A stretch of DNA of 64,000 nt from Micrococcales bacterium (GTDB lineage Bacteria > Actinomycetota > Actinomycetes > Actinomycetales > Microbacteriaceae), in contig JAHEGC010000006.1 in assembly GCA_024639965.1 (NCBI GenBank), positions 6,796 through 70,795 of the forward strand. Direction: 5' to 3'. The notes beneath the pieces were generated by a model. That model was not told where the DNA came from and made no database searches. It saw only the letters and a program-made list of their open reading frames with translations. Numbering within the stretch: position 1 is the first letter of the stretch; every line of letters starts with the position of its first letter. Shown here in pieces: positions 8,576 to 58,770 of this stretch. Both the position numbers and the translations under genes were made by a program.

Positions 8576-10425
8576 TTCTTGTCCTTGTCCTTCTTCTCCA
8601 CGTCGCCCGAGAGTGCGGCGATGAACGCTTCCTGGGGAACTTCCACGCGTCCGACCATCTTCATGCGCTTCTTTCCCGCCTTCTGCTTCTCGAGAAGCTT
8701 GCGCTTGCGGCTGATGTCACCGCCGTAGCATTTCGCGAGAACGTCCTTGCGCATCGCGCGGATGCTCTCGCGGGCGATGATGCGCGCACCGATTGCGGCC
8801 TGAATTGGAACTTCGAACTGTTGACGAGGGATGAGTTCGCGAAGTCGACCCGTCATCATCACCCCGTAGGCGTAGGCCTTGTCGCGGTGGACAATCGCCG
8901 AGAACGCGTCGACCTGCTCCCCCTGCAACAGGATGTCGACCTTGACCAGGTCGGCCTCTTCCTCGCCGGCGGGCTCGTAATCGAGCGAGGCGTACCCCGC
9001 CGTGCGTGACTTGAGGTTGTCGAAGAAGTCGAAGACGATTTCGCCGAGCGGGATCGTGTACTTGATTTCGACTCGGTCCTCCCCGAGGTAATCCATGCCG
9101 ATGAGCGTTCCGCGACGCGATTGGCAGAGTTCCATGATCGTGCCGACGTAATCCTTGGGCGCCAGCACGGCGGCGCGAACGATGGGCTCACGAACGGACG
9201 AGATTCGTCCGACCGGGTATTCCGACGGGTTCGTCACAACCACGAGCTTGCCGTCATCCGTTGTGACGTTGTAAATGACGCTCGGTGCCGTTGCGATGAG
9301 GTCCAACCCGAATTCGCGCTCGAGACGCTCGGTGATGATCTCGAGGTGCAGCAAGCCGAGGAAGCCGCAGCGGAAACCGAAACCGAGTGCAACCGAGGTT
9401 TCGGGTTCGTACACGAGCGACGCGTCGGACAGCTTGAGCTTGTCGAGCGCCTCGCGAAGTTCGGGGAAGTCGCTGCCGTCGATCGGATAGAGACCGGAGA
9501 ACACCATCGGTTTGGGGTCGGTGTACCCCGGGAGCGCGGCTTTCGCCGGCTTGCCGTGGTTCGTGACCGTGTCGCCCACCTTCGATTGGCGCACGTCCTT
9601 CACGCCCGTGATGAGGTAACCGACCTCGCCCACGCCGAGACCCGCGCTGGGAGTGGGCTCGGGCGAGGACACCCCGATTTCGAGAAGTTCGTGTGTCGCG
9701 CGCGTCGACATCATCTGGATGCGTTCGCGGGGACTCAGCGACCCGTCGATGACACGGACGTAGGTCACGACCCCGCGATAGGCGTCGTAAACGGAGTCGA
9801 AGATCATCGCACGAGCGGGAGCGTCGGCATCGCCCACGGGCGAGGGAATCTTCTCCACCACGCGGTCGAGGAGCGCTTCGACTCCGACGCCGGTCTTGCC
9901 CGACACGCGCATCACATCGTCGGGATCTCCACCGATGAGCGATGCGAGTTCCTTCGCGTACTTCTCCGGGTCGGCCGCGGGCAGGTCAATCTTGTTGAGC
10001 ACGGGGATGATTTCGAGGTCGTTTTCCAGCGCGAGATAGAGGTTCGCGAGAGTCTGAGCCTCGATTCCCTGTGCCGCATCGACGAGCAGGATTGCTCCCT
10101 CACACGCGGCGAGCGACCGTGACACCTCGTAGGTGAAGTCGACGTGGCCGGGAGTGTCGATCATGTTGAGGGCGTAGTCGACGCCGTCAACTTCCCACGG
10201 CATGCGCACCGCCTGGCTCTTGATCGTGATTCCACGCTCGCGTTCAATGTCCATGCGATCGAGGTACTGGGCGCGCATCTCGCGGTCGCCAACGATTCCG
10301 GTGATGCCGAGCATTCGGTCGGCGAGTGTCGATTTGCCGTGATCGATGTGGGCGATGATGCAGAAATTGCGGATGACCGACGGGTCCGTGCGGGACGGAA
10401 CGGGGGGCTTCACGGAACGGGACAT
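8572..10425 (-). CDS. lepA: Elongation factor 4 (LepA)
   Basis: [20 protein letters not shown]...; full-length translational GTPase. Confidence 0.96.
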
Positions 10426-10622: not shown

Positions 10623-11069
10623 GTGGCAAACATCAAGTCGCAGATCAAGCGAATCAAGACCAACCTCAAGGCTCAGGAGCGCAACAAGGCGGTCAAGAGC
10701 GAACTCAAGACCGTCATTCGTGCCGCCAAGAAGGCGATCGAATCCGGAGACAAGACCGCGGCCGTCAACGCCGTTGCAGTGGCGACTCGTCGACTCGACA
10801 AAGCCGTCTCCAAGGGCGTCATTCACAAGAACCAGGCAGCCAACCGCAAGTCGGCAATCGCGGGTCAAGCCGCGGCGCTGTCGGGCGACGCGAAGGTAAC
10901 GAAGTCGGCGCCCAAGGCCGCCGCAAAGACCGCCACCAAGGCACCCGCGAAGGCGGCTGCGAAGCCCGCCGCTAAGGCTCCGGCCAAGGCCGCTGCCGCT
11001 AAGCCGGCAACCAAGGTCGCCGCTGCAAAGCCGGCAACCAAGGCCGCACCGAAGAAGTCGGCCGAGTAG
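10623..11069 (+). CDS. rpsT: 30S ribosomal protein S20 with long Lys/Ala/Pro-rich C-terminal extension
   Basis: [30 protein letters not shown]...; start GTG at 10623; tail [26 protein letters not shown]... Confidence 0.92.
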
Positions 11070-37760: not shown

Positions 37761-37849
37761 TACTTGTCCTTTCAAGTGTTACAGCGGTCACGATTGAGCA
37801 CGCTGCTTCTCCAATCTAAGACAGCCGACACCTTTTCGTAAGGGGTTTC

Positions 37850-37924
37850 GGTAACGTTTTGGAAACGCTTTCACCCTTTATTTGTAAGGACATTAGGTTT
37901 TTCACGCAAGCGCAAAACGTTACC
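37850..37924. promoter_or_regulatory. LacI-family-like operator cluster upstream of sugar ABC operon
   Basis: GGTAACGTTTTG (37850-37861), TGGAAACGCTTTCA (37860-37873), CAAAACGTTACC (37913-37924). Confidence 0.55.
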
Positions 37925-38040
37925 CGCGTTTGGGCAAAAACCATGACGATCGCGATCGCTTCCGACCATGGCGGCTGAGCGCAGCGCAGCGAATTCGTTG
38001 GGGGCAGCCAACACGTTTTCTCTAAGAATGGACCTGAGGG

Positions 38041-38065
38041 CGCGAGAGTCCTGCGGACTCTCGCG
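38041..38065. repeat. Palindrome B: CGCGAGAGTCC-TGC-GGACTCTCGCG
   Basis: Perfect 11-bp inverted repeat. Confidence 0.95.
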
Positions 38066-38133
38066 TCTGAGCGCAGCGAAGCGAATTCGTTGGGGGCAGC
38101 CAACACGTTTTCTCTAAGAGTGGACCTGAGGGG

Positions 38134-38158
38134 CATGGCAGTCCAGTGGACTGCCATG
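38134..38158. repeat. Palindrome A1: CATGGCAGTCC-AGT-GGACTGCCATG
   Basis: Perfect 11-bp inverted repeat. Confidence 0.95.
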
Positions 38159-38199
38159 TTTGGCACGCTGTACCGCTGTCTAAGAGTGGACCTGCGGGG

Positions 38200-38224
38200 C
38201 ATGGCAGTCCAGTGGACTGCCATG
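38200..38224. repeat. Palindrome A2, identical to A1
   Basis: Perfect 11-bp inverted repeat, 66 nt from A1. Confidence 0.95.
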
Positions 38225-38252
38225 TTTGGCACGCTGTACCGCTGTCTAAGAG

Positions 38253-38325
38253 TGGACCTGAGGGGACTCGAACCCCTGACCCCCTGCATGCCATGCAGGT
38301 GCGCTACCAGCTGCGCCACAGGCCC
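38253..38325 (-). tRNA. tRNA-Ala(GGC)
   Basis: GGGCCTG/TG/GCGC-AGCTGGTA-GCGC/A/CCTGC-ATGGCAT-GCAGG/GGGTC/AGGGG-TTCGAGT-CCCCT/CAGGTCC/A folds as a 73-nt cloverleaf; CCA not encoded. Confidence 0.95.
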
Positions 38326-58722: not shown

Positions 58723-58770
58723 GAACAAGCGAAGCGGGTCGAGGTTTTCCTCGACCCGCTTCGCTTGTTC
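58723..58770. terminator. Strong bidirectional hairpin terminator
   Basis: 22-bp perfect stem GAACAAGCGAAGCGGGTCGAGG-TTTT-CCTCGACCCGCTTCGCTTGTTC. Confidence 0.9.

Follow-up and report, generated by a model that had tools for sequence, protein, structure and literature searches.

The tRNA-Ala(GGC) gene in the DNA analysed here is followed by three short units, each made up of a piece of trailer, a 25-nt palindrome and a copy of the 3' tail of that tRNA. The same architecture is found behind Ala-GGC, Ala-CGC, Arg-CCT, Val-CAC, Val-GAC and Val-TAC genes in 11 of the 15 genomes of the genus, a group of uncultured freshwater Microbacteriaceae. Few docking sites of bacterial mobile DNA are as common as tRNA genes, and the reading that we prefer, to which we give an even chance, is that these are hairpin-ended insertion units that restore the tRNA tail and work like miniature additive tRNA cassettes.

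Array behind tRNA-Ala(GGC)

The window, i.e. the whole stretch of 64,000 nucleotides that was analysed, belongs to the genome called G000 in the following. Read from the tRNA, the order in each of the three units is trailer (28, 28 and 55 nt), palindrome and tail copy, with the palindrome directly preceding the tail copy on the tRNA strand. Each palindrome has a perfect stem of 11 bp and a loop of 3 nt, and the tail copies, CCCC(G/T)CAGGTCCA or CCCTCAGGTCCA, span tRNA positions 61 or 62 (T-stem) to 73. The features are the following:

38252-38325, minus strand: tRNA-Ala(GGC), host gene, own tail (positions 61-73) at 38253-38265; ARAGORN, Rfam RF00005 (64.4 bits)
38225-38252, minus strand: trailer/spacer of unit 1 (CTCTTAGACAGCGGTACAGCGTGCCAAA); sequence
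38200-38224, minus strand: palindrome of unit 1, 25 nt (CATGGCAGTCC-ACT-GGACTGCCATG); 11-bp perfect stem, 3-nt loop
38187-38199, minus strand: tRNA tail copy 1 (CCCCGCAGGTCCA), tRNA positions 61-73, one mismatch; sequence
38159-38186, minus strand: trailer/spacer of unit 2, identical to that of unit 1; sequence
38134-38158, minus strand: palindrome of unit 2, 25 nt, identical to that of unit 1; stem search
38121-38133, minus strand: tRNA tail copy 2 (CCCCTCAGGTCCA), exact; sequence
38066-38120, minus strand: trailer/spacer of unit 3, 55 nt (CTCTTAGAGAAAACG...CGCTCAGA); sequence
38041-38065, minus strand: palindrome of unit 3, 25 nt (CGCGAGAGTCC-GCA-GGACTCTCGCG); stem search
38029-38040, minus strand: tRNA tail copy 3 (CCCTCAGGTCCA), positions 62-73; sequence
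37975-38028, minus strand: distal trailer beyond tail copy 3, almost the same as the trailer of unit 3 (one mismatch in 46 nt) and not followed by a palindrome; presumably the original trailer or a truncated unit

Much of this had been described in an earlier note on the window. The motif TCTAAGA(A/G)TGGACCTG(A/C)GGG(G/C) is present at all four places that it gave (38021, 38113, 38179 and 38245), the periods of 92, 66 and 66 nt and the single-base difference between the two 66-nt units are correct, and the segment 37975-38020 does recur inside the 92-nt unit with one mismatch. The tRNA is confirmed by both ARAGORN and Rfam. Of the array's anatomy, the tail copies had been recognised and the 25-nt palindromes had been missed.

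The 66-nt array has a TRF score of 299. A genome-wide search for the repeat, which the earlier note had proposed, gives four matches to the 21-mer CCCCTCAGGTCCACTCTTAGA (at most three mismatches) in the 1.37-Mb genome, all of them within the array, while the reversed 21-mer used as a control has none in the same 1.37 Mb. A survey of perfect stems of at least 10 bp with loops of 3-6 nt, in which roughly 1.35 Mb were inspected, found 35 distinct stems; those with an 11-bp stem and a 3-nt loop are the three palindromes of the array and one located after tRNA-Val(CAC).

It is important to point out that the copy number of the array is taken from one short-contig assembly. Neither chance nor an assembly artefact is a likely explanation in general, since ten other genomes of the genus, each assembled independently, show the architecture too. 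In the G000 assembly, runs of N adjoin duplicated tRNA sequences at L143 (near tRNA-Val GAC), L160 (tRNA-Val TAC) and L075 (tRNA-Leu CAG), and the copy numbers there are uncertain.

Some other observations were made in the window. An ORF of 167 aa (37816-38319, minus) and others cross the tRNA and the array, and could be mis-annotated as proteins. A 48-nt palindrome at 58723-58770 has a perfect stem of 22 bp and a loop of 4 nt, and at 10912-11062 a sequence of the form CCAAGGCCGCC... is repeated in tandem, in units of 24-36 nt that likely encode a Lys/Ala-rich protein tail.

Family across the genus

The family was found by searching the 15 genomes for the palindrome core ARYCCRCWGGRYT. This search left the six outer base pairs of the stem free; they are paired in nearly all of the tRNA-adjacent core matches and unpaired in the matches that lie in coding sequences. 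About 38 palindromes were counted behind tRNAs, all of them on the tRNA strand and the first one some 27-66 nt past the tRNA, and at every locus the order is the same, namely tRNA, trailer, 25-nt palindrome and tail copy of that very tRNA. Units unrelated to tRNA ends, which the earlier note had named as the observation that would speak against a tRNA-derived origin, were not met with in relatives, where every unit follows a tRNA. Val-GAC of G209, a genome from a different genus of the family, adds one further case.

In G000, 8 of the 11 palindromes of this shape are located at most 335 nt downstream of a tRNA and on its strand, at four separate tRNA loci; this territory makes up less than 1% of the genome. 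Units are found at 4 of about 40 tRNA genes in G000, at 4 of 42 in G008 and at 1 of 41 in G014 (plus a tRNA-Ile remnant), and a pattern search of G010 (two contigs, 99% complete) gave no palindrome of this type. The units are mostly 66-104 nt long, with a duplicated trailer part of about 10 to 50 nt, and equal spacings of 74-75 nt occur in arrays. The remnant in G014 (L201 around 10249-10390, minus) is tRNA-Ile(GAT)-like and lacks the T-arm; after it come a trailer and a palindrome that belongs to the same family, and an intact tRNA-Ile lies nearby.

The palindrome has the consensus CGnnAnAGTCC-RCW-GGACTnTnnCG, and both its size and its core (CC-RCW-GG, CG ends) are kept across unrelated tRNAs. 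The two arms covary, with 8 of the 11 pairs changed on both sides among 26 distinct sequences and a covariation score of 0.597 compared to 0.09-0.15 for slid pairings. In total 96.9% of the cells are paired, a percentage that is biased upward because some of the sequences come from scans allowing at most 2 mismatches; the covariation is less affected by this. Three of the 12 departures from Watson-Crick pairing are G-U which, small as the numbers are, gives no sign of tolerance at the RNA level.

The position at which the tail copy starts is characteristic of the locus and is repeated across species, at 63 for Arg-CCT, 60-62 for both Ala genes, 56 for Val-CAC and 50 for Val-GAC. The Val-TAC locus has two palindrome types, each with its own tail start (63 or 67), and the two types alternate in the order b-a-b in one array (G002). 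Most palindromes are followed by a tail copy, and at several distal ends it is decayed or lost. At Arg-CCT, where G013, G007 and G008 share an identical palindrome and the palindrome with the preceding ca 11 nt is more conserved than the remaining trailer, the tail copies read CAGCGGC, CAAGGGC or CGAGGGC. In most species they match the host tRNA of that species; G006 and the distal copy of G001 show mismatches. From this tracking we infer that the tail copies are renewed from the host tRNA, either by reinsertion or by homogenisation through slippage.

Outside the genus, 38 tRNAs were examined at Ala-GGC and Arg-CCT loci, and 3 of them are followed by a tail copy at a distance of about 130-150 nt. 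These belong to other genera of the family (L018, Ala-GGC of G030; L249, Arg-CCT of G026; L256, Arg-CCT of G030), and at L018 and L249 the tail copy stands directly behind a long inverted repeat whose sequence is different. Perfect 25-nt palindromes of the type seen in the genus (e.g. CGAAACAGTCC-ACT-GGACTGTTTCG), some of them identical as 25-mers, are found in other phyla away from tRNAs, in Selenomonadaceae (L268, L270, L273, L275, L279, L284, L285, L290, L294, L303-L308, L314) and Atopobiaceae (L277, L289, L295, L316), with a further locus at L296. They are located inside larger dispersed intergenic repeats; the five genomes in which they were counted have 3-7 copies each and no Y1 transposase. 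Their relation to the palindromes of the genus could be either common origin or convergence.

Filled and empty sites

We now turn to the tRNA-Ala(GGC) loci of the genus, whose comparison, also proposed in the earlier note, brings out filled, empty and partly duplicated states. The filled locus of G004 and the empty one of G011 differ by one clean insertion of 77 nt after the TTCGA of the T-loop. G006 is filled as well, and the other Ala-GGC loci of the genus that were read contain no unit. In G005 (L007) the tail CCCTCAGGTCCA stands twice in tandem, a bare duplication of 12 nt with no palindrome, which is possibly an excision footprint or a product of slippage.

A single unit bears genes, all others being gene-free. 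In the Arg-CCT array of G013, three short units are followed by a segment of 1.95 kb between two palindromes (L192:9914-11839, contig 16), with genes for an Amidase_6 protein (E 4e-22) and for two further proteins that match nothing in Pfam. Its end reads GTTGAATAAGA-palindrome-CTCCAGCGGCAC, and the sequence downstream of it aligns with the flank of G007 and G005, both of which are without the segment. Although a single case, this is the best hint in the sequences that units may carry genes. A second candidate, a cassette of about 3.1 kb adjoining the Arg-CCT array in G013, G007, G005 and G001, was rejected because its far junction has neither palindrome nor tail; it looks like an ordinary gene that was lost in other lineages.

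Search for a mobilising agent

Y1 transposases are absent from all 15 genomes of the genus in a search that was positive in 5 of 14 controls. Mobilisation by Y1/RAYT was therefore discarded, there being no Y1 in the genus nor in the Selenomonadaceae and Atopobiaceae genomes with the similar palindrome. Most genomes of the genus have one to three matches to Phage_integrase. The proteins typed, which are those of G000, G008 and G014 apart from extra matches in G007, G010 and G014, are XerD/XerC-like and score 101-138 bits compared to the integron-integrase cut-off of 265, and a dedicated tyrosine integrase was rejected on this ground. With the patterns tried, no viral contig or plasmid was found to carry a unit; the matches are ordinary phage tRNA-Ala or unrelated ones, and an origin in phages, plasmids or viral contigs was set aside. 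A literature search for the palindrome core sequence returned no relevant paper.

Proposed mechanism and alternatives

A unit consists of the 3' part of the tRNA, which begins at a fixed T-arm position and runs to the discriminator base, followed by a trailer of about 28-66 nt and the 25-bp palindrome. In the mechanism that we prefer, it would enter as DNA at the boundary of T-arm and palindrome, possibly as a circle and through the action of an enzyme. As the incoming unit would supply the 3' part, the tRNA would stay intact and the old tail would be pushed downstream. The palindrome may then serve as the signal for recognition or crossover, in the manner of a tRNA-targeted cassette, and repeated entry, together with slippage between short direct repeats, would build up the arrays and keep the tail copies in agreement with the host tRNA. 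Of the two explanations offered in the earlier note, the one that fits best is that very small elements were inserted serially at an att-like site of the tRNA, considering the filled/empty pair, the six tRNA genes, the locus-characteristic tail boundary and the gene-bearing unit. There are also points against insertion. The Arg-CCT units have the look of vertical descent through much of the genus and not of recent mobility, the variable lengths of unit and duplicated trailer are not the obvious product of a precise recombinase, and no candidate enzyme stands out among the families searched in the genus.

The main rival, which we regard as possible but on the unlikely side, is template switching combined with slippage during replication. 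Here the polymerase would fold back, giving the palindrome, restart in the T-arm and copy the tail and trailer once more, while tandem slippage would shift the copy number and homogenise the tails. No enzyme is needed for this, and the variable length of the duplicated trailer and the bare duplication in G005 agree with it. The Val-CAC duplication of G000, moreover, extends into the left arm of the palindrome and the right arm resembles a snap-back copy, and repair of the palindrome in this manner would keep the arms perfect and not favour G-U pairs. Template switching does not, on the other hand, readily account for a palindrome of fixed size and conserved core at unrelated tRNAs, for the arms in G004 and G006, which have no template in the native trailer, or for the reuse of a similar 25-mer in other phyla.

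Another option considered, more doubtful still, is an integron-like cassette system anchored at tRNA genes. The palindrome and the T-arm-derived tail would together form a hairpin recombination site, the T-arms would act as anchors, and circular cassettes, either small or gene-bearing, would be captured, perhaps by the host Xer or by an undescribed enzyme.

A role at the RNA level is in our view improbable. The palindromes would in that case fold in the tRNA trailer for termination, stability or 3' processing, and the tail copies would be decoys competing for the 5' strand of the tRNA. The constant strand and the short distance downstream are in line with this, the array folds strongly as RNA (z -4.2), the tRNA 5' end can pair with the distal tail copy, and the conserved stretch at Arg-CCT could be read in the same way. 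However, the palindromes are followed by CCCC/CTCC and not by a U-tract, and the terminator scan does not flag them; an intrinsic terminator, i.e. a GC-rich hairpin with a T-run, was rejected since there is no such run. With Rfam 15 at gathering score, the only match is the tRNA. The palindromes are, furthermore, present at only about 1-4 of about 40 tRNA genes (and by pattern at none in G010), wobbles account for just 3 of the 12 departures from Watson-Crick pairing, and the filled/empty sites and the gene-bearing unit are left unexplained. The other explanation in the earlier note, RNase Z/P decoys or sRNA products, finds no support in the sequences: the array matches no Rfam family, the palindromes are not followed by a T-run, and there is no excess of G-U wobbles over what is expected without selection on the RNA.

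That the units are attL/attR remnants of ordinary phages or integrative elements, once inserted at these tRNA genes and later deleted, is very improbable: a duplicated tail at a tRNA is indeed the classical mark of integrase-mediated integration (PMC9897764), but many independent elements would each have to leave a 25-bp palindrome at the same place with an equal spacing of 74-75 nt, and integrase matches beyond the Xer-sized ones are few in the genus.

Comparison with known systems

The closest resemblance of the units in our comparison is to additive flexible genomic islands, as these are presented in the portions consulted of the papers on Ca. Actinomarinales (PMC7771536), Ca. Methylopumilus (PMC10872708) and Alteromonas (PMC4119200). 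In the streamlined marine Ca. Actinomarinales, gene cassettes with a partial tRNA repeat at their end are described as being targeted to tRNA genes (PMC7771536), and in Ca. Methylopumilus repeats of the last 20 nt of tRNA-Lys are described as preceding an additive island (PMC10872708). Common to these accounts and the present case are the tRNA gene as target (here six tRNA genes, with the filled/empty pair at Ala-GGC), partial 3' repeats of the tRNA that mark the distal end of the inserts and can recur in series, and streamlined aquatic hosts with few recognisable mobile elements. The present units differ from the islands as described there in being mostly 66-104 nt long and gene-free, and in having a conserved 25-bp palindrome before each repeat.

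With integron arrays and their attC hairpin sites, the units share the tandem arrangement, the palindromic site at the end of each unit and the occurrence of a gene-bearing unit among short ones; the typed recombinases are instead XerD/XerC-like, far below the integron-integrase cut-off, and the anchor is a tRNA gene. REP/BIME elements with RAYT likewise consist of short conserved palindromes in arrays at several loci per genome, but in the genus the units are confined to tRNA 3' ends and there is no Y1 transposase. As at the att sites of tyrosine integrases in tRNAs (phages, ICEs, tycheposons), insertion of a 3' part would restore the tRNA and leave a truncated tail; the unit is however too small to encode an integrase, and the recombinases typed are of the XerC/XerD kind.

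To our knowledge, no obvious enzyme accounts for the growth of additive islands at tRNA genes in streamlined aquatic bacteria. If the tRNA-anchored cassette system considered above were true, it would provide the missing mechanism for these integrase-less islands. The genus offers many minimal and comparable units at six tRNA genes, with a fixed and conserved palindrome adjoining each tail copy. With this palindrome as the candidate recombination signal, a size of about 75 bp and natural filled and empty sites, the movement of such cassettes becomes testable.
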